This document shows, piece by piece, positions 1 through 10,490 of a stretch of 55,532 bases of DNA (positions are counted from its first letter, which is position 1; every line of letters begins with the position of its first letter). Made by a program: the position numbers and the translations under genes. Origin of the DNA: an uncultured Clostridia bacterium (lineage in GTDB: Bacteria > Bacillota > Clostridia > Oscillospirales > Acutalibacteraceae); NCBI GenBank assembly GCA_947624835.1, contig CANQLX010000004.1, positions 1-55,532 on the forward strand, given 5' to 3'. The notes under the pieces were generated by a model that made no database searches, was not told where the DNA came from, and was given only the letters and a program-made list of their open reading frames with translations.

Positions 1-76
1 TTTTGAATTGAACCGCCGTATGCCGAACGGCACGTACGGTGGTGTGAGAGGAGGGAGAAAATCCCTCCTACTCAAT
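1..76 (+). mobile_element. Group II intron, 3' end only (domains V and VI)
   Basis: Positions 10-36 form a hairpin (CGCCGTATGCC / GGCACGTACGGTGG) with the look of group II intron domain V. It is followed by a second hairpin, GGAGGGA-GAAAA-TCCCTCC (about 51-69), and then CTACTCAAT, which fits domain VI. The A at 70 would be the branch-point adenosine, so the intron should end near 76 with the usual AY. The rest of the intron and any reverse transcriptase lie outside the window. The intron lies on the plus strand, downstream of and opposite to cotJC. Basis: seen hairpins plus knowledge of the family. Confidence 0.75.
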
Positions 77-220
77 TTTCGATATCTATAACGAATAAAA
101 AATTAATGATTAAAATAATTGAGATGCTTTCGTATGTATTTACGCCTATGGAGTTAGAAAGTATAAATCCAATGATAGTTTCAAAGTGGCACCTCCTTCA
201 CCTGTTGAAGTGTGGACTGC
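77..220. other. AT-rich spacer between intron end and cotJC
   Basis: No gene is supported here. On the minus strand there is a Shine-Dalgarno-like AAGGAGGTG (about 189-197) followed by a TTG and only 12 codons before a stop. This could be the remnant start of a gene cut off by the intron insertion, but nothing identifies it. Confidence 0.4.
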
Positions 221-269
221 TTACCCATTAGGTTCAAATTTGCGTTTATTTTCTAATAAAATTGAATCA

Positions 270-764
270 TTACCAACAACTGCATTTTGTACGTTTTGCC
301 TCACCGAACCTCTGATAGTGAACTACTTCACGTGCACGAAGAAACCTTATTGGGTCAATCACATCAGGATCATCACAAAAACGCAGGATATTGTCATAGG
401 TTACTCTTGCTTTCTGCTCTGCTGCAAGATCCTCATGAATATCGGTTATAGCATCACCCTTGACCTGCATAGAGGCTGCACTATATGGAACTCCTGCTGC
501 CGAGGACGGGTATACTCCGGCAGTATGGTCCACAAAATACTGATCAAAGCCTGCAGCCTTAACCTCTTCAATAGTCATATTCTTCGTAAGCTGATATACT
601 ATTGCTCCGACCATTTCAAGATGACTTAGCTCCTCTGTTCCTATATCCGTCAAAATAGCCTTGACTTCCGGATACGGTACGGTAAAGCGTTGACTTAGAT
701 AACGGAGTGATGCTCCGAGTTCTCCATCGGGACCGCCGTATTGCAAAAAGATATAATAACACAC
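270..764 (-). CDS. cotJC: CotJC spore-coat manganese catalase, 3' fragment (split gene)
   Basis: From codon QYGGPDGELG onward this is a recognisable CotJC: a ferritin-like manganese-catalase fold with the metal-ligand motifs GTEELSHLEM and EDLAAEQKAR, and near the end the conserved REVVHYQRFGEA. It lacks the first about 32 residues, which sit at 6382-6477 on the same strand beyond a 5.65-kb insertion. Only a GTG without a ribosome site opens this fragment, so it is not expected to be translated alone. Joined at the 15-bp repeat the two parts give one 184-aa frame, close to the Bacillus protein. The C-terminus KRTKCSCW looks foreign. One indel in the A-run at 294-297 would instead lead into another frame ending at 221. 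Translation from 764 to 745 is element sequence, not CotJC. Confidence 0.9.
   Translation of the reverse strand: MCYYIFLQYGGPDGELGASLRYLSQRFTVPYPEVKAILTDIGTEELSHLEMVGAIVYQLTKNMTIEEVKAAGFDQYFVDHTAGVYPSSAAGVPYSAASMQVKGDAITDIHEDLAAEQKARVTYDNILRFCDDPDVIDPIRFLRAREVVHYQRFGEAKRTKCSCW
730..744 (+). repeat. Left attachment-site core, 15-bp direct repeat
   Basis: GGGACCGCCGTATTG is repeated exactly at 6382-6396. The flanking bases differ at once on both sides (c...c here, a...a at the other copy). Read on the minus strand it encodes the conserved QYGGP of CotJC. Host sequence lies to the left and element sequence to the right. The predicted empty site is ttctccatc-core-agaaattat, and the predicted circle junction is tttacagta-core-caaaaagat. 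Confidence 0.9.
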
Positions 765-771
765 AAAAGGA

Positions 772-806
772 ATCGGACAATACAGTAAAGCTGTATTATC
801 CGATTC
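772..806 (-). terminator. Terminator after the element lipoprotein gene
   Basis: A near-perfect stem AATCGGA-n-AATACAG / CTGTATT-n-TCCGATT is followed on the minus strand by CCTTTTGTG. It separates the element genes from the attachment core and would stop read-through into the cotJC 3' fragment. Confidence 0.65.
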
Positions 807-818
807 ACATAATATCTG

Positions 819-2192
819 TCAGAATTTAAAAAGTATATTAACCTTTCCTGTTGTCAAATCCTTTTCGAGAAACGCCGAGTTCACCCTACTGTACCCGGTT
901 CTCCAACCAACAGTATAGGATTCATCCATTTCGCCGTAATGCACAAGACAATAAACCTTATCCCCCACCTGTTCAACATTATTTATGTAATACCTGTTTG
1001 AACCATTTTTGTCAGGCAGTGCATTGCCAACTATTGAATAATCACTTTCTGAAATTACTGCTTTTCTTTCACCGTTACTGCGGTCTATCAGACATACATT
1101 ATTAGCAACCATACAGTAATCATTCATAGGTGAATATGGCATATCTTCCTGATACTCTGTTATCCTGCCGTCACTGTCGACAGAAAATTCCGCACGTTTT
1201 GCTCCCTCTATCTGTTTTGCATCGCTTCCGTCATATTTCATTTTTACTATTCTTCCGCCCTGATAAACGACTAATGTACCTCCCAGGCCTCCGTATGAAA
1301 AATAGATACAGTCATCACCAAAATACATTTGCCCCACCATAGCCGAACTCACATCCGAATAATCGTATAACTTCTCATAGTCTGTATACAAATCCTTCTG
1401 ACCGGTTCCGTCAGCTCTAACACATGAAATTCTAATTATTCCGCCATTATCATAAAATTCATTATTACCCGAACTATAGTAAACAATATTGTCATGATGT
1501 GCAATATAGCTTCCATGCTCTGCCAATACTGTTGCCTTTTCTGTACCAATATCAACGGAATAGATTTTTTGAGAATCGGTACAAATCAAATATTTGCCGT
1601 CCTCACTCATTCCGACCAATTTATAACCTTCTCCAATAACTTTTTCATTTTTTCCGTCCATATCACAGACATAAAGTGTATCATCGCTTGAATTATAAAA
1701 AACTCTTCCGTTTACAACAGCTAACAGACCATTACCGTCCGATTTAAACAATGTATTTTCGTTACCACCCGAATCCCGGCATACAAATTCATTTGCTATT
1801 CCCTGTTCAAATCCAAAATAACCGGAACCACCGTCTTTAAATGTATTTTTGTTATACTTCCAATAGTATGTGTTATCATCAACTTTAGCCACATATCCGA
1901 ATTGGTCTTTTGATATCACTTTATTCGTAACGGGGCTTTCCTCGGATTGCTGAGATACAGCCTCCCGGCTTTGTTCAACGCTTTCCTCCGCTTCAGTACT
2001 GTTTACAGATACCTTCCCGGAAACCTCACTGATTCCATCAGCAGAAGCCGTTGTTGTTTCACTTACATACGACACCCTTGACACAGAATCCACATTATCC
2101 GAATCACCGGATTTACCTGCACATCCTGCGTAATTTGCGACTGCCACAGTTAAAATTAAGGATAATACAATTAATCTCATATTTTTTTTCAA
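819..2192 (-). CDS. Element-borne lipoprotein with beta-propeller-like repeats
   Basis: The protein begins with a basic start and a hydrophobic stretch ending in the lipobox NYAGC (about residues 17-21), so it should be exported and lipid-anchored. A Ser/Thr/Glu-rich linker (about 25-85) follows. After that come repeated units of the type DGKNEKVI, DGTGQKDL and DGSDAKQI, resembling DUF5050/TolB-like propeller blades that display values to the outside. The chosen TTG start follows GGTGTGATGAC; ATG or GTG codons 6 and 9 bp upstream (2198 and 2201) are alternatives. A TTGATA-N17-TATAAT promoter lies just upstream, which implies expression in growing cells. The ligand is unknown. It is the last gene before the left repeat and has its own terminator. 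Confidence 0.75.
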   Translation of the reverse strand: MKKNMRLIVLSLILTVAVANYAGCAGKSGDSDNVDSVSRVSYVSETTTASADGISEVSGKVSVNSTEAEESVEQSREAVSQQSEESPVTNKVISKDQFGYVAKVDDNTYYWKYNKNTFKDGGSGYFGFEQGIANEFVCRDSGGNENTLFKSDGNGLLAVVNGRVFYNSSDDTLYVCDMDGKNEKVIGEGYKLVGMSEDGKYLICTDSQKIYSVDIGTEKATVLAEHGSYIAHHDNIVYYSSGNNEFYDNGGIIRISCVRADGTGQKDLYTDYEKLYDYSDVSSAMVGQMYFGDDCIYFSYGGLGGTLVVYQGGRIVKMKYDGSDAKQIEGAKRAEFSVDSDGRITEYQEDMPYSPMNDYCMVANNVCLIDRSNGERKAVISESDYSIVGNALPDKNGSNRYYINNVEQVGDKVYCLVHYGEMDESYTVGWRTGYSRVNSAFLEKDLTTGKVNILFKF

Positions 2193-2221
2193 AGTCATCA
2201 CACCTAAATAATTCTTATAAT

Positions 2222-2250
2222 ATTATACTACAGTTTTATATAAATATCAA
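2222..2250 (-). promoter_or_regulatory. Vegetative-type promoter of the lipoprotein gene
   Basis: On the minus strand TTGATA (2250-2245), exactly 17 bp, then TATAAT (2227-2222). The lipoprotein start is about 30 bp downstream. Confidence 0.65.
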
Positions 2251-2314
2251 CAAATTTCCGTCAAAATGATAAAGCTTTATAGTTTTAGTATTTCATATTA
2301 AGCTTTTCCCGCAG

Positions 2315-4480
2315 TTATTCTTTATCATTTATACCAATCAACTGAATTTTGAATGATATTTTCCTTGGTGTCCTAAGCCCATCGAATCTTATAAGATATG
2401 CAAGCTTATCCATATCAAGAGCTTCTATTGTTCCCGACCCAAGCACATTGTGTCTGATACGCTGACCTACGGAAAATAACTCATCCTCAGATCCGTCAAG
2501 CAAAAATTTCTCCGTCAGCTTAACATACTCTTTTGTTTCGCTTATAAGTCCCTCCTTCGGCTTTTGAGTGTAATCAAGAAGTGACTGATCTATATCAAGA
2601 ATAAATCTTGAGGGATACCTCGGAGAACCATCAAGATTCCTTCCTTCGGCTTCCGTAATATACAGTTTTCTTTTTGCCCTTGTCATCGCGACAAAAGCAA
2701 GCCTCCTCTCTTCCTCCATTTTCTGAACGGTATTTGTTCTCTTTGATGGGAATATTCCCTCATTCATGGCACACATGAATACATAGGGAAATTCAAGTCC
2801 TTTGGCGGCATGAACCGTCATTAGTTTCACCCTGTCGCCCTTGCTGTCAATATCAGCATTTGTGTACAGTGCAATATGAGAAAGATAATTTTCAAGCATA
2901 CCTTCCTCTCCGCAAGTATTTTCAAAATCATAAATTGACTGCTTAAGTTCCGCAAGATTATCCAGCCTCTCCTGACTCCCCTCTGTTCTGAGCATCTTCT
3001 CATATCCGCTCCTGTCAAGCAAATCATTTACCAGCTCGGAAATAAGCCTGTACGAATAATTCTCTGACAGCTTTTCTATCATACCGACAAATTCATATGC
3101 TCCCGTCCCCCTGAATATATCCTCCTCCAGATTCATGCACATTGCCTGATACAGAGTGCAGTTGTTCTTTATTGCATATTGTCCGATAAAATCAATACGT
3201 CTCTCACCAATATTACGCTTCGGAACATTCACAATTCTTCTGAAAGATATGTCATCTTTATATGCAATCATTCTCAGATATGCAAGAATATTTTTTATTT
3301 CCTCCCTTGCATAAAACTGTATCCCGCTATATATGTTATACGGTATTTTTGCCATTCTCAAAGAATTTTCAAGCTCTCTCGTCACAAAATGCGAACGGTA
3401 CAGAACCGTAATATCCCTGTACGGCACTCCGCCATCATTAAGCTCAGTTATCTTCTGTGCTATCCACTTCATTTCAAGCTCGGATGTATCGGCAAAATGA
3501 CATACAACCCTGTCCCCGTCGGGCAATGTCGGAATCAGTTCCTTCTTTATCCTGTACTTATTCTTATCAATAAGGGAATTTACTACAGACAGAATTTGCG
3601 GAGTTGAGCGATAGTTCTCAGTCATCATGACTGTTTCTGTACCCGGGAATTTTTTATCGAAATCCAACAGATATTTTACATCCGCACCTCTCCATGTGTA
3701 TATAGTCTGATCCGGATCTCCTACAACAAAAAGATTTTTATGATATCCGCACAGCACCTCCATAAGCTGGTGCTGCAACGAGTCAATATCCTGAAATTCG
3801 TCAACCATAATATATTCGAGCCGTTTCTGCCATTTCAGTCTTATATCTTTAAATTCCGAAAATATATACAATACAAATTTTATCAGATCGTTATAATCCA
3901 ATCCAAAACATTTCTTTTCCTGATAAAGATAACCGTAGAAAATAATATCCTTTGTATCATTTGCATTTAGATACTTTTCACGAAGATTTTCAAGCGACAT
4001 ATTAATTAAATCCTTATAGTAATCCGGATTTTCAGACAGCTTCCGAATTTCTATCATATCTCTGGCAGCCTTGTAGGTCATATCCCTCAGCGTAAGGCTT
4101 CTTTCCTTATAAATAACCGCAAGCATACCATCAATATCCGAATTATCAAGAACAAGAAAGCTTTTGGGGTAGTTTACCGCATTGCTGTCCTCCTGCAATA
4201 TATTAACACAGAATCCGTGGAATGTACTTATATATCCCGTATCATTATCCCCCGTCAGATTATGTATCCTCTGCCGCATTTCATTTGCGGCTTTATTTGT
4301 AAACGTCACACAAAGTATATTTCCCGGCAATATCCCCACTTCATTTACAAGAAAGGCAAACCTGTGTGTCAGTGCCCTTGTTTTTCCCGAGCCTGCACCT
4401 GCTATAACACGAACATAACCTTCCATTGATGTAACCGCTTGAAGCTGTGATCCATTTAAGTTTTCTAAAATACTTTCCAT
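2315..4480 (-). CDS. UvrD/PcrA-family 3'-5' DNA helicase carried by the element
   Basis: This is a superfamily 1 helicase of 721 aa, the usual size for PcrA/UvrD. Motifs appear in order: Walker A AGAGSGKT (about 28-35), motif II VDEFQDID (about 220), motif III VGDPDQTIYTWRG (about 250), motif IV TENYRS, motif V TVHAAKGLEF (about 555) and motif VI VAMTRAKRKLY (about 610). A C-terminal GQRIRHNVLGSGTI segment resembles the PcrA Tudor-like tail. The start at 4480 follows GGTGGGGATAAT; upstream codons are less likely. Such helicases unwind DNA in repair, plasmid replication and removal of RecA. As cargo it might help element replication or maintenance, but that is a guess. No nuclease domain or partner such as GajA is present. 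Confidence 0.9.
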   Translation of the reverse strand: MESILENLNGSQLQAVTSMEGYVRVIAGAGSGKTRALTHRFAFLVNEVGILPGNILCVTFTNKAANEMRQRIHNLTGDNDTGYISTFHGFCVNILQEDSNAVNYPKSFLVLDNSDIDGMLAVIYKERSLTLRDMTYKAARDMIEIRKLSENPDYYKDLINMSLENLREKYLNANDTKDIIFYGYLYQEKKCFGLDYNDLIKFVLYIFSEFKDIRLKWQKRLEYIMVDEFQDIDSLQHQLMEVLCGYHKNLFVVGDPDQTIYTWRGADVKYLLDFDKKFPGTETVMMTENYRSTPQILSVVNSLIDKNKYRIKKELIPTLPDGDRVVCHFADTSELEMKWIAQKITELNDGGVPYRDITVLYRSHFVTRELENSLRMAKIPYNIYSGIQFYAREEIKNILAYLRMIAYKDDISFRRIVNVPKRNIGERRIDFIGQYAIKNNCTLYQAMCMNLEEDIFRGTGAYEFVGMIEKLSENYSYRLISELVNDLLDRSGYEKMLRTEGSQERLDNLAELKQSIYDFENTCGEEGMLENYLSHIALYTNADIDSKGDRVKLMTVHAAKGLEFPYVFMCAMNEGIFPSKRTNTVQKMEEERRLAFVAMTRAKRKLYITEAEGRNLDGSPRYPSRFILDIDQSLLDYTQKPKEGLISETKEYVKLTEKFLLDGSEDELFSVGQRIRHNVLGSGTIEALDMDKLAYLIRFDGLRTPRKISFKIQLIGINDKE

Positions 4481-4506
4481 ATTATCCCCACCCTTGCCAT
4501 GATATA

Positions 4507-4535
4507 AGTGTAGCAAAAAAATGTATTAATAGCAA
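4507..4535 (-). promoter_or_regulatory. Promoter of the element helicase gene
   Basis: On the minus strand TTGCTA (4535-4530), 17 bp, TACACT (4512-4507). A short perfect hairpin ACCTGA-AAA-TCAGGT lies directly upstream (about 4536-4550) and could be an operator or a weak terminator. Confidence 0.5.
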
Positions 4536-4615
4536 CCTGATTTTCAGGTGTTATCCTTAACTTTACAAATTATTGCCCAATTATAAAATAACGGATGGAA
4601 TTTTTTCTACCGCTA

Positions 4616-4828
4616 TTAAATTTCAGACAGTCCGCATTTATCGTTATTTAACAGTATATCCGTAGCAGCTGCGGCAAGTTTTTCGGATACGGCATTTTTA
4701 ACCTGTCCGTCCAACGAACAATCGTGATATATCTCATTTTCTCCGTCAAACTCATACCACAGCTTACAATTTCCGATTTTATCCTTTACAATTATCCTTC
4801 CCCAAAGCTTTTGATTTCTCTTTGACAT
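4616..4828 (-). CDS. Small 70-aa element protein, candidate directionality factor
   Basis: MSKRNQKLWGR starts after a strong AGGGGGATGATAGTT site. The product is soluble, mixed in charge, with a beta-rich first half (GRIIVKD, CKLWYEF) and a predicted helix near the end (NAVSEKLAAAATDIL). I do not recognise a family. It is divergent from the recombinase and shares its 110-bp promoter region, so it is the obvious candidate for a recombination directionality factor. In SP-beta the small SprB plays that part next to SprA. This is inference from position and size only; it could equally be a repressor or a hypothetical protein. Confidence 0.65.
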   Translation of the reverse strand: MSKRNQKLWGRIIVKDKIGNCKLWYEFDGENEIYHDCSLDGQVKNAVSEKLAAAATDILLNNDKCGLSEI

Positions 4829-4846
4829 AACTATCATCCCCCTATC

Positions 4847-4875
4847 AAATATTATGTAATTTTTTGTCCTACAAT
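4847..4875 (+). promoter_or_regulatory. Candidate sigma-E promoter of the recombinase
   Basis: AAATATT (4847-4853), exactly 14 bp, then CCTACAAT (4868-4875). The Bacillus sigma-E consensus is KMATATT-N14/15-CATACAHT, so this is 6 of 7 and 7 of 8 matches at the right spacing. Transcription would start near 4882, about 57 bp before the recombinase ATG. A weaker overlapping candidate faces the other way (GAATTGT 4877-4871, N14, CATAATAT 4856-4849) toward the 70-aa gene. Confidence 0.65.
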
Positions 4876-4938
4876 TCACGCAAAAATCATAATATTAGTT
4901 GGTATATTTATTGTCGGATCATTGAAGGAGTCGATAGT

Positions 4939-6360
4939 ATGAAAACAGCAGCCGCATATATCAGAGTTTCAACAGAGGATCAAACGGAATATTCTCCCGC
5001 ATCCCAGCTCGAAAAAATAAGAGAATATGCAAAAAGAAACGGATATTTACTTCCCGAGGAATTTATTTATACGGACGAGGGCATATCCGGCAGGCATACT
5101 GCAAACCGTACCGGCTTCAACAAAATGATAGGTATTGCAAAATCAAAGCCTAAACCCTTTGATGCCATCCTTTTATGGAAATTCAGTCGTTTTGCACGCA
5201 ACCGTGAGGACAGCATTGTATATAAGTCCATTCTGCGTAAGCAATGCGGTATAGACGTGATTTCAATATCCGAAAACATAGGCGATGATAAAATGTCCGT
5301 ACTTATTGAAGCACTTATTGAAGCAATGGACGAATATTACAGTATAAATCTTTCGGAGGAAGTACGGCGTGGTATGAATGAAAAAGCAAGACGTGGTCAG
5401 GCCGTTACCGTACCCTCATACGGATATGACATAAAAAACGGAAAATATATAATAAATCCTGAAACGGCCCCTGTTATCCGTAAAATATTTTCCGATTTTG
5501 CAAACGGCAAGGATATGAGAAGAATAGCCGAAGAACTCAACATATGCGGTTACCGCACACGAAGGGGGAATCAATTTGAGAACAGAACCGTAAGGTATAT
5601 TTTGGGTAATCCCGTATATATAGGAAAAATACGTTGGACCCCGGACAGTAAAGCTGCCTGCAATGGGTGCAAACCGGAAAAAATTATAATTGACGGTGAG
5701 CATGAAGCGATTATTGACAGTGATGTTTGGGGCAAAGTTCAAAACAGACTTAATACCGCATCAAAAGTCAAATATATGCATACCGCCTCACCTAAAGTTC
5801 CCTTTATGCTCCGGGGACTTGTGAGGTGCGGATCTTGCGGTGCAACACTTACACGGTCGGCTGCACATACATCGCTGCAGTGTTATTCCTATTCCCACGG
5901 AAAATGCAGGGACTCACACAGCATAAGTATTAAAAAAATAAATTCATCAGTGCTTGATATGATTGATATGGCTGGTCTGAACGTAAGCCTAAATCTAAAC
6001 GACAAGCCTCGTGTATGTTTGGAAAAATCCGCAGATTCATCTGCAATGCTTGAAAGAGAGAGAAAAAAAATTGAACGTATCAAGGATGCTTATGAAAACG
6101 GCAGCTATACGCTTGACGAATTTACAAAAAGTAAAAACCGGATTCTGAGCCGCATAACAGAGCTTAAAAATCTGCAAAAAAAATGCACCTCCGCCGAAAA
6201 TAATAAAAAAAAACTATTGAACAGGCATATTAATCTGTCTGACATCCTTCTATCTGAAAAAATAACGGAGGATATTAAAAATAACCTGTTGAAATCATTT
6301 ATCGTACGCATAATATTTTACCGTGAAAGCGGAGGAATTGAGATCTATCTTGATGTATGA
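4939..6360 (+). CDS. Large serine recombinase, predicted to excise the cotJC element
   Basis: The 473-aa protein has an N-terminal resolvase domain with the nucleophile in YIRVSTEDQ (Ser11), the DEGISGR and RFARN motifs, then the recombinase domain (SYGYDIKNGKY onward). A zinc ribbon follows (CGSCG plus a CYSYSHGKC pair, about residues 300-325), then a Lys/Glu-rich coiled coil (about 370-430) typical of large serine integrases and of SpoIVCA. The ATG follows GAAGGAG. Its stop is 21 bp from the right attachment core, the usual place for an integrase gene. A sigma-E-like promoter precedes it. The predicted role is recombination of the 15-bp cores to excise the element and rejoin cotJC in the mother cell. 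Confidence 0.95.
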   Translation: MKTAAAYIRVSTEDQTEYSPASQLEKIREYAKRNGYLLPEEFIYTDEGISGRHTANRTGFNKMIGIAKSKPKPFDAILLWKFSRFARNREDSIVYKSILRKQCGIDVISISENIGDDKMSVLIEALIEAMDEYYSINLSEEVRRGMNEKARRGQAVTVPSYGYDIKNGKYIINPETAPVIRKIFSDFANGKDMRRIAEELNICGYRTRRGNQFENRTVRYILGNPVYIGKIRWTPDSKAACNGCKPEKIIIDGEHEAIIDSDVWGKVQNRLNTASKVKYMHTASPKVPFMLRGLVRCGSCGATLTRSAAHTSLQCYSYSHGKCRDSHSISIKKINSSVLDMIDMAGLNVSLNLNDKPRVCLEKSADSSAMLERERKKIERIKDAYENGSYTLDEFTKSKNRILSRITELKNLQKKCTSAENNKKKLLNRHINLSDILLSEKITEDIKNNLLKSFIVRIIFYRESGGIEIYLDV

Positions 6361-6363
6361 ATA

Positions 6364-6477
6364 TTATATCCTTTTACAGTAGGGACCGCCGTATTGAGAA
6401 ATTATAATCTGAGCAAGCTTCGGGTTAGTCTGCTTTATATTAATGGGGTATTGAAGTCTTTTTTCATATACAAACAT
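6364..6477 (-). CDS. cotJC: CotJC spore-coat manganese catalase, 5' fragment (split gene)
   Basis: The ATG at 6477 follows TTAGGAGGACC and opens the normal CotJC N-terminus MFVYEKRLQYPINIK...AQIIISQYGGP (32 residues). At the 15-bp core the frame runs into element sequence and stops after five more codons (YCKRI). It lies 11 bp behind cotJB in the usual cotJABC order. In the integrated state only this 37-residue peptide can be made. After excision the frame continues as DGELGASLRYL from position 729 downward. Confidence 0.92.
   Translation of the reverse strand: MFVYEKRLQYPINIKQTNPKLAQIIISQYGGPYCKRI
6382..6396 (+). repeat. Right attachment-site core, 15-bp direct repeat
   Basis: Exact second copy of GGGACCGCCGTATTG, here preceded by element sequence (cttttacagta) and followed by cotJC sequence (agaaattat). 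See the left copy at 730-744. Confidence 0.9.
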
Positions 6478-6488
6478 AATCGGTCCTC

Positions 6489-6728
6489 CTAATTATTCCA
6501 CGGCCACGGGTCTGCGATCCATGCCCAACGATTACCGTCATCACCCGGGGTAAGGGGACCGAATTTTTCCTCAAACTCCTTACGAAGTGCTGCAGCCTGT
6601 TTTTCATATTCGTTAAGTGCAGCTCCGGCGGAGGTATCATTAGGATGTGTGTCCAAATATATATGAAGCTCGTGAGCCGCAAATTCAACCGCCGAAAGTC
6701 GGCGAAGCATACGCTCTCTTTCAGTCAT
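6489..6728 (-). CDS. cotJB: Spore coat protein CotJB
   Basis: A 79-aa protein with the CotJB pattern: MTERERMLRRLSAVEFAAHEL, then LDTHPND, and an aromatic end with WAWIADPWPW. CotJ proteins are made in the mother cell under sigma-E and enter the inner coat. The start at 6728 follows AAAGGGAGGTAAG and overlaps the end of cotJA by 8 bp, so the two are translationally coupled. Another in-frame start 33 bp upstream lies inside cotJA and lacks a ribosome site. Confidence 0.9.
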   Translation of the reverse strand: MTERERMLRRLSAVEFAAHELHIYLDTHPNDTSAGAALNEYEKQAAALRKEFEEKFGPLTPGDDGNRWAWIADPWPWNN

Positions 6729-6927
6729 TTTTCTTACCTCCCTTTCCGCAGTCGGGGTCAAACGGGAAATTAAGCTCCGGGAACAGTGTTCCCATCATAA
6801 TAGCCTGTTCGGGCGAATAAAGTTCGCTCGCATTCTGATAAGGCACATAGGCCATAGCCTCTGAAACCTTTTTCGGAATAGGCTGAATGAAAAATTCCGA
6901 ATTTTGCAGTTTCTTTATAACGTCCAT
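6721..6927 (-). CDS. cotJA: Spore coat associated protein CotJA
   Basis: The 68-aa product has the family pattern: AMAYVPYQNASELYSPEQAIMMGTLFPEL in the middle and a Pro/Asp-rich FPFDPD end. It is the first coat gene of a cotJABC operon whose third gene is interrupted by the element. The ATG follows AAAGGAGATTATT. A hairpin with a T-run immediately upstream (6943-6966) could set the level of transcription entering the operon. Confidence 0.9.
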   Translation of the reverse strand: MDVIKKLQNSEFFIQPIPKKVSEAMAYVPYQNASELYSPEQAIMMGTLFPELNFPFDPDCGKGGKKND

Positions 6928-9539: not shown

Positions 9540-10490
9540 GTGCAGTTAAGCAGCGACGAAAATTCTAAAAATTTTCCCGTGGACGGAAGTTCGGCCCTTG
9601 AAGTTGAAACTGTTTCCGAAACCGTCAGATCCGGGAGAAAAAAGAAAAGCCGCAGGAAAAATAAAAAAAATGCCGTTACATACGCTTTGGAAACCGAACC
9701 AACGGAACAAAACGTAAACGGAATAATAAAAACAGACGATAATACTTCTGTAAGTACAGTTGAAGAAAAAATTTCCCGAACAGATAACACCGAGGAAATC
9801 TCTCCAACAGAACCGGACAAGGCTGAACCGGAAATTTCTCCGGAAATAAAAGATAACCCTACAAATTCTCCCGAAGTAAATCCGACAGAGCCTAAGCCTG
9901 AAATAGAAAGAAATTCTGTATCTGAGGCAAAGGCGGTTTTTGGCGGGAGTGTAAGCACAGATATAAAGCTTGATAAGGAAGATCCGGTTGCTGTTCCCGA
10001 TGGTTCGGGAATTGTATATGAGGTTGCTGAGGAGCTTTATCGCAGAGAAAGGACTCAGGCAGAGCTTGAAGCACTTTGTCATCCACCCTTTAAGAAAGTA
10101 TTTACCGAAAACCAAAAGGTAACTCTTGATAAGGAAGCAGAGGACCGCACACGAAGGCTAGTATCGGCAGCTGCTCAAGCACAGGCAAAGGACCCGACCT
10201 ATCTACCCGATGGCTTGTATGAGGAAAGTGATAAACCCATAGGAACAGCAACTGCTTTTCTACTTGAATTTGTAATGCTCATTCCTGTGCTGAATGTCAT
10301 AGCGGCTATTATTTATTCATTTATGAAAAAAACAAATAAGAATATCCGTTCCTTTTCCCGAGGTTTTCTTATATGGTCAGTGCTTTCCATGCTCGCAGTA
10401 TCGGCATATCTCGCCGTATATTTTATCAACTCACAGATACAGACCGGAAATACGGGATTTCTTGAAGTATTCAATCTATTTCAACTATAA
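9540..10490 (+). CDS. Membrane protein with long disordered N-terminus
   Basis: The GTG at 9540 is preferred because GGGGG lies 7 bp upstream; a weaker in-frame ATG is at 9519. The first about 140 residues are low complexity, rich in Glu, Thr, Pro, Ser and Asn, with a basic run SGRKKKSRRKNKKN (about 25-38). A short helical segment with many charged residues follows. Near the C-terminus are two membrane helices (FLLEFVMLIPVLNVIAAIIYSF and FLIWSVLSMLAVSAYLAVYF). No family is recognised. The layout suggests a large cytoplasmic disordered region tethered to the membrane. A terminator follows at 10518. Confidence 0.75.
   Translation: MQLSSDENSKNFPVDGSSALEVETVSETVRSGRKKKSRRKNKKNAVTYALETEPTEQNVNGIIKTDDNTSVSTVEEKISRTDNTEEISPTEPDKAEPEISPEIKDNPTNSPEVNPTEPKPEIERNSVSEAKAVFGGSVSTDIKLDKEDPVAVPDGSGIVYEVAEELYRRERTQAELEALCHPPFKKVFTENQKVTLDKEAEDRTRRLVSAAAQAQAKDPTYLPDGLYEESDKPIGTATAFLLEFVMLIPVLNVIAAIIYSFMKKTNKNIRSFSRGFLIWSVLSMLAVSAYLAVYFINSQIQTGNTGFLEVFNLFQL

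Follow-up and report, generated by a model that had tools for sequence, protein, structure and literature searches.

Intervening elements that split sporulation genes are known from several bacteria. The element skinCd interrupts sigK of Clostridioides difficile; its large serine recombinase (LSR) is constitutive, and a recombination directionality factor (RDF), the 72-amino-acid (aa) protein CD1234, which is under sigma-E and SpoIIID, confines excision to the mother cell (PMC5025042). The prophage SPbeta lies in spsM, a spore-envelope gene of Bacillus subtilis that is rejoined during sporulation (PMC4191935), and gin, an LSR-coding non-phage element of 28.6 kb with three recombinases in all, lies in gerE of Bacillus cereus ATCC10987 (PMC5595907). 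The prophage-like yin occupies the coat-processing gene yabG of Clostridium botulinum, where the excised circle was detected, and has been called unique (PMC10747680), and vfbin is an intervening element in the sporulation gene spoVFB of Bacillus weihenstephanensis (PMC10747680, PMC5595907). Here we describe the spore-coat gene cotJC in a stretch of 55,532 nucleotides (contig CANQLX010000004.1, “the window”) from an uncultured Clostridia bacterium of the Acutalibacteraceae. We consider it likely that this is a developmentally split gene, interrupted by two LSR elements at sites that we number 1 and 4 and closed in the sporulating mother cell.

As with skin in sigK (C. difficile and B. subtilis), an LSR element sits in a sporulation gene with predicted exact rejoining. 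Unlike skin, the cotJC elements are found in a coat gene rather than a sigma factor, at four sites with four LSR clades, and range from 2.3 to 38 kb. By comparison, spsM is apparently single-site, and the SPbeta recombinase YokA/SprA matches the window LSR only weakly (E 2.9e-7). Whereas gin unites three recombinases in one element, each cotJC site is owned by a different LSR clade, and in contrast to yin, elements in cotJC occur widely across the sampled family. What vfbin shares with them is the location in a sporulation gene, but gene and genus differ. Among the matches listed for the open-access literature (subscription papers and preprints lying outside this scope), there are elements in sigK, spsM, gerE, yabG and spoVFB and none in cotJC. 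The excerpts of PMC11222575 name cotJC only for a gene that adjoins the site of a prophage deletion in C. difficile, and those of PMC10083194 hold no cotJC match.

The cotJC locus of the window

Genomes, contigs and loci are labelled G, C and L; the window is contig C4 of its own genome, G000, an assembly that is 85% complete. The genes cotJA, cotJB and cotJC follow each other in this order on the minus strand (6927-270), with Pfam matches to PF11007 (cotJA), PF12652 (cotJB) and Mn_catalase, PF05067 (CotJC, 1e-40), so that the gene bears both marks of the CotJC family, the Mn_catalase domain and the cotJA-cotJB-cotJC order. A preliminary description of this DNA had reported that cotJC is broken after codon 32, that the rest of the gene lies 5,652 bp away on the same strand, and that a perfect 15-bp repeat marks both borders and restores the frame. 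The break and the repeat are borne out: the window has two copies of GGGACCGCCGTATTG and no more (729-743 and 6382-6396), in the same orientation and not once on the opposite strand, and fusion at the repeat gives ...IIISQYGGPDGELGASLRYL... with the cotJC frame kept. The spacing from repeat to repeat is corrected to 5,653 bp, and the downstream part, although on the same strand as reported, is not the whole rest of the gene, as the C-terminal tail lies on contig C81. About 0.02 exact 15-bp repeats are expected by chance in 6 kb (our own arithmetic, with the demand on the reading frame not counted in). The intervening DNA sits inside a sporulation gene of which both parts are retained in the same orientation, and in the unrearranged window the truncated cotJC open reading frame (ORF) runs for 37 aa from the start codon. 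The repeat and the split are real and not a product of chance, and a skin-like logic is supported.

Read in the cotJC sense, one site-1 border is CAATACGGCGGTCCC followed by TACTGTAAAAGGATATA and the other TATATCTTTTTG followed by CAATACGGCGGTCCC. On its element side each border carries one half of an inverted repeat, which matches expectation for the attP of an LSR. The LSR gene (4939-6357, plus strand) is full length, with Resolvase, Recombinase and Zn-ribbon domains (Pfam), and its stop codon (6358-6360) lies 21 bp away from the repeat, the distance that had been reported. None of the four larger ORFs of the element matches a phage structural family in Pfam, and its cargo is absent from the other loci compared, with the sole exception of a weak UvrD match (28-30%) in L132. 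The features are as follows.

6382..6477, minus strand: cotJC exon 1, codons 1-32, core repeat included (from the repeat and the rejoined frame)
6382..6396: attachment core copy beside exon 1, GGGACCGCCGTATTG (exact repeat)
6361..6381: arm of the element where it meets exon 1, TACTGTAAAAGGATATA in the cotJC sense; makes up one half of the attP inverted repeat
744..6381: site-1 intervening element minus the repeats (5,653 bp counting one repeat)
4939..6360, plus strand: LSR of the site-1 clade, 473 aa (Pfam Resolvase, Recombinase and Zn_ribbon_recom; tree)
4616..4828, minus strand: small ORF of ~70 aa, divergent from the LSR gene; candidate RDF (by position; no Pfam match above the cut-off)
2315..4495, minus strand: cargo, UvrD/REP-type helicase (Pfam)
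819..2201, minus strand: cargo, lipoprotein-like ORF (judged by eye; no significant Pfam family)
729..743: attachment core copy beside exon 2 (exact repeat)
297..743, minus strand: cotJC exon 2, codons 28-176
297..302: core of site 4, GAGGCA (codons 175-176), common to contig C81; second break of the gene
283..293: site-4 element arm, CGTACAAAATG in the cotJC sense; the inverse arm, CTTTGTACG, precedes the C81 tail exon
1..296: visible end of the site-4 element, running off the contig edge; other end on G000:C81 (LSR ORF 1753-3357, tail exon 3388-3474)
11..76, plus strand: group II intron, 3' end, at the contig edge and on that side of the site-4 break which belongs to the element (RF00029, 49 bits)
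6489..6728, minus strand: cotJB (PF12652)
6721..6927, minus strand: cotJA (PF11007)

Joined at site 1, cotJC encodes 184 aa ending RFGEAKRTKCSCW, while most relatives compared run on like LRIVTDKLDSKNFYAFNPEFD. A search for the missing tail found it in the same genome at C81:3382-3474. Directly before it stands CTTTGTACG, which is inverse to the arm CGTACAAAATG found at positions 283-293 of the window. An LSR ORF with Resolvase, Recombinase and Zn-ribbon domains (C81:1753-3357; only 22% identity with the window LSR where the two align) ends 30 bp ahead of this tail. Because tail, inverse arm and LSR are found together on C81, we read the first 296 bp of the window as the end of a site-4 element. 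Exon 1, exon 2 and the C81 tail, all three open, join to a CotJC of 205 aa. The claim that removal of the element restores cotJC therefore holds for the in-frame rejoining of the repeats but not for the full protein: given the second break at 297-302, excising the 5.65-kb element alone leaves CotJC incomplete, and both breaks must close. In G315 a single contig holds both site-4 borders, separated by 5,498 bp, and their in-silico fusion keeps the frame. The window genome also encodes an open, full-length cotJC-like paralogue that is 34% identical (G000:C59:1019-1549, L002).

Sites, recombinases and elements in the genus and family

The state of cotJC was scored in a genus set of 64 genomes by a CotJC search, inspection of the regions around fragments and a scripted tally, in which a break at sites 1-3 was counted only with at least 25 nt past the border. 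Breaks were counted in 18 genomes at site 1 (codon ~31), in 14 at site 2 (codon ~64) and in 8 at site 3 (codon ~135), which amounts to 32 genomes, 8 of them broken at two of these sites. At site 4 (codon ~175), the tail search and fetched borders gave isolated tails in 15 of the 64 genomes, with variants of CTTTGTA just before them, and an LSR of the site-4 clade is present in the fetched stretch of 8 of these 15, some stretches being short. G331 shows only the 5' side of site 4, with the usual arm; in G354, counted under site 2, that side deviates and the tail was not found. Altogether at least one break is present in 41 of the 64 genomes, 13 of which are broken at two or more sites, with a maximum of three in G334 and G344 (sites 1, 2 and 4). 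The search of relatives for an intact gene, proposed earlier as a check, found nine congeners with uninterrupted cotJC including the tail (G214, G280, G301, G303, G309, G310, G318, G329 and G338), and 14 genomes were not scorable. G336, G314 and G331 were rejected as uninterrupted, as they are broken at site 4. A split by one element thus describes site 1 correctly but is too narrow for a gene with a second break here and, across the genus, as many as four sites. Spo0A is encoded by 59 of the 64 genomes, including all 26 that are at least 90% complete and at most 5% contaminated.

Sites 1 to 4 lie in the conserved CotJC motifs QYGGPDGE, DIGTEELGH, AAEQKAR and QRFGEA, respectively, and each has its own arms and its own LSR clade. 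The site-2 and site-3 LSRs form separate, fully supported clades in the tree, and site-4 LSRs share 20-25% identity in local alignments with one representative each of the other three clades. The site-3 arm of G312 (L051) looks dissimilar to the others. At the 5' side of site 4 in G331 (L027), a repeated unit, GTAGAAATTTAAAGGTTGATATAAACT, is present twice after RFGEA. In G336, a type I-C-like CRISPR-Cas set (Cas3, Cas5, Csd1, Cas7 and Cas4) adjoins the site-4 LSR and cotJC tail on C20 (L261), and on a different contig, C4 (L024/L262), the break at site 4 has a CRISPR-like array of 23 repeats of ~36 bp immediately on its 5' side. This CRISPR-Cas locus may be cargo of an excisable site-4 element.

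At family level, a sample of 300 genomes was considered. Among the 42 non-window genomes whose matches to the site-1-clade LSR ranked best (E <= 5.3e-84), the LSR lies within 150 bp of a cotJC exon in 35 by hand count, the exceptions being G100, G125, G255, G002, G137, G090 and G284. Counting that of the window, 17 site-1 elements are each contained in one contig; they range from 2.3 to 38 kb and are all in deletion orientation. A single in-silico join yields a protein of CotJC length (184-247 aa) in 15 of them, and G247 and G127 need another join. Automatic joining took the wrong core for G279, lost GG in G125 and G230 and lost one codon in three genomes of the group g120 (an artefact of script register). 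The protein of G125 ends RFGEANHTD..., so its gene may also be broken at site 4. A 31-kb gap in G247 was dropped as a candidate site-2 element, since it has no clean arms and one weak LSR-profile match (147 bits, in a frame entering exon 3). Inverted-repeat, attP-like arms (ATATCTTTTTGCA...TGYAAAAAGATAT) recur at site-1 borders across species, the common run at the borders being only 2-5 nt in some relatives. The elements of G340, G293 and G003, in the range up to 38 kb, are prophages (capsid, portal, terminase or tape-measure matches among ten chosen ORFs), and the cargo of small elements besides the LSR includes an amidase (g120) and a superoxide dismutase (g127). In G106 a single contig (C23) carries four collinear cotJC pieces, all on the same strand, which join to give 205 aa, with LSRs of the site-1, -2 and -3 clades in the respective gaps, an extra weak LSR match in the second gap and no clean arms at site 2. 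Between pieces 3 and 4 of this locus (L237-L239) are, by eye, priA-, rsmB-, Ser/Thr kinase- and ackA-like genes, which the mother cell would lose if that gap were excised.

Rejoined attP sites also occur outside cotJC. Two IMG/VR viral contigs carry the site-1 attP as a palindrome directly beside an LSR that is 60-61% identical to that of the window over the LSR length, and the circular phage record PQ006094.1 (32 kb) has a 47% identical LSR followed by a similar palindrome; the site-2 and site-3 attP patterns had no matches in the viral contigs. The viral contigs imply that relatives exist with the cotJC core inside an intact attP. Closed sites are found beside split ones in two genomes. G201, a metagenome-assembled genome (MAG), has site 1 closed on one contig and an element arm and LSR before exon 2 on another, with 111 identical nt after the core, and G344 has closed and split forms of site 1 that are one single-nucleotide polymorphism apart, for which reason it was rejected as proof of excision. 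Excised DNA and an element-free strain would give the same picture of a closed site in both.

Selection and alternative readings

Two elements, each with an LSR gene beside its border, occupy conserved cotJC coding sequence at codons ~31 and ~175. On our reading, growing cells would have only the truncated ORF of 37 aa. In the sporulating mother cell, recombinase and directionality factor, for which the small divergent ORF is a candidate, would recombine attL with attR, and crossover within the shared core would release a circle with the inverted-repeat attP and leave a closed gene, full-length CotJC of 205 aa requiring both excisions. As the mother cell dies, the spore would keep the elements, which would gain a harmless home while the host keeps CotJC.

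Selection on the exons was assessed over codons 34-172 as the ratio of nonsynonymous to synonymous differences (pN/pS), for 30 split genomes represented by 32 rows (second contigs account for two of the rows, and G300 stops at a contig end). Gapped matches (L046, L058 and L066) were left out of the stop and pN/pS counts. The 32 rows are free of stop codons as far as codon 172, and pN/pS is 0.1445 among split genes (432 pairs) versus 0.1397 among the nine uninterrupted ones (36 pairs) and 0.148 between the window cotJC and uninterrupted congeners. L058 is clean, and the stop in L046 falls ahead of its border. Among family exon matches, stops in G223 and G201 lie before the border or are absent, and others are reported in G034, G090, G099 and more. 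A 2.3-kb LSR element is common to G279, G119 and G213, three species of g120, where pS is 0.50-0.62 for the LSR, 0.59-0.67 for cotJC and 0.41-0.61 for cotJB (48 codons), and pN/pS is 0.07-0.08 for cotJC and 0.27-0.32 for the LSR. The similar pS values fit inheritance of the element together with the gene. The data are compatible with an element long inherited vertically and a gene on which purifying selection still acts, and the low cotJC ratio makes it unlikely that cotJC is never rebuilt. The preliminary description likened the locus to skin and SPbeta, and this comparison gains support from the uninterrupted congeners, the attP-like arms, the viral attP, purifying selection and in-silico rejoining of the other single-contig elements.

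Ordinary integration of phages or islands, in which cotJC serves as a convenient conserved attB, a dispensable coat gene is knocked out and excision follows only upon phage induction, is an unlikely explanation but one with some weight. The three site-1 elements examined that proved to be prophages and the free attP in viral contigs agree with it, as do the distant open paralogue in the window genome (34%, C59) and consensus scans in which sporulation-type promoters were not demonstrated; yet knocked-out genes would hardly have exons that are stop-free in 32 split rows and as conserved as uninterrupted genes, or LSR elements of 2.3 kb, too small for phages, that persist in three species (pS ~0.6, cotJC pN/pS 0.07-0.08). 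That the insertion is dead, with cotJC a pseudogene and the element a relic, is very improbable. The full-length window LSR with all its domains, the perfect repeats, the three open exons and the pN/pS of 0.148 oppose it, although no same-cargo copy of the window element is present among the loci compared and the G284 LSR is spread over three frames. Equally improbable is a switch in which the LSRs rearrange the chromosome by inversion or shuffling through cotJC sites (phase variation) rather than by deletion. It would account for exons inverted on one contig in G353 and for apparent housekeeping genes between the exons of G106, but not for the deletion orientation of the window and all 17 single-contig elements, or for the collinear exons of G106.

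Several points count against a developmentally split gene. Most of the genomes are drafts and many are MAGs, and the site-4 element of the window is known only as two ends on two contigs. Excision in the window strain is something that we infer from assembled sequence alone, as we infer its timing in sporulation, the directionality factor and selection for rejoining. The closed and split forms of site 1 in G201 and G344 may reflect strain mixture. On G353:C8 (L062), cotJC exons 1 and 3 (44-139 and 9766-10116) are mutually inverted, so that deletion cannot repair the gene, with a site-2 LSR and apparent housekeeping genes between them as in G106; this arrangement may be an inversion or a misassembly. 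As to disabling mutations, which the preliminary description had named as contrary evidence, no stops were found to codon 172 in the 32 rows or in further exons up to their borders, but exon 2 of G347 (L066) has an in-frame 14-residue duplication of GELGASLRYLSQRY, either an assembly slip or a mildly damaged gene, and the LSR of G284 in three frames is a pseudogene or a sequencing error. With pairwise pS close to saturation, a low pN/pS would be expected of recent insertions as well, and long residence is argued only by the g120, g127 and g55 pairs, with G279 joined at the wrong core in the g120 pN/pS comparison (190 codons used). Finally, a bipartite sigma-E/sigma-K scan upstream of 23 LSRs found AC-N14-17-CATANNNT in 2, with 1.2 expected and thus no excess over chance, and a consensus scan upstream of 11 RDF candidates was not above shuffles.

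Possible control of excision and meaning of the split

An LSR with a small RDF would, by analogy with skinCd, be the likeliest design. Candidate RDF ORFs of 70-85 aa, divergent from the LSR, are present in compact elements; they are similar in size and place, with sequences barely alike between genera. A post hoc pattern, ATA[GA]GAC-N13/14-nATA, precedes the candidate RDF in 8 of 11 cases, the window's not among them. The bare -10 box CATANNNT stands upstream of 10 of the 23 LSRs versus 4.7 expected (sd 1.9), which is above chance, and AC-N15-CATAATAT upstream of the window LSR is a lead only. AC-N15-18-CATAnTAT, a sigma-K-like pattern, is found upstream of cotJ genes in seven of nine contexts tried, the window's included, as a raw count. 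GTCCTA, the complement of which presumably resembles a SpoIIID box, lies within 160 nt of 8 of 40 LSR starts (G000, G279, G119, G213, G219, G127, G103 and G152; post hoc). None of its carriers is an element identified as a prophage and it is missing in the compact elements of G054, G173 and G028; as a regulatory signal it was rejected, not being significant with lineages counted once. A hairpin, CCCTGCCGG...CCGACAGGG, is seen by eye just upstream of the LSR, some 20 nt from its start, in many site-1 loci of the genus (L063, L066, L074 and others) and is absent in the compact g120 and g127 elements. Rfam gave no match in the seven element loci scanned, hairpin included.

What is new is cotJC as a target and the multi-site architecture, the mode of working being that of known skin-like elements. 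The sporulation splits known from the literature surveyed have one element at one site per gene, and here one short coat gene has four conserved motifs occupied by four LSR clades, in 41 of 64 genomes of the genus, with compact elements retained across species. On balance it is probable that cotJC is routinely split in the family, its 200 codons holding four fixed DNA “splice” sites, each with a distinct LSR clade and a palindromic attP and up to three of them occupied per genus genome, so that several excisions are needed in one mother cell, and that the sites are a safe harbour for phages, islands and the type I-C-like CRISPR-Cas locus. A further suggestion is that genome annotations report a truncated CotJC. 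The locus supplies natural LSR/attB pairs that all act on a single gene, and it opens to test the questions of why sporulation genes attract elements (harmless lysogeny versus control of timing), how several excisions are coordinated within one cell, and by what route prophages may be reduced to domesticated switches.

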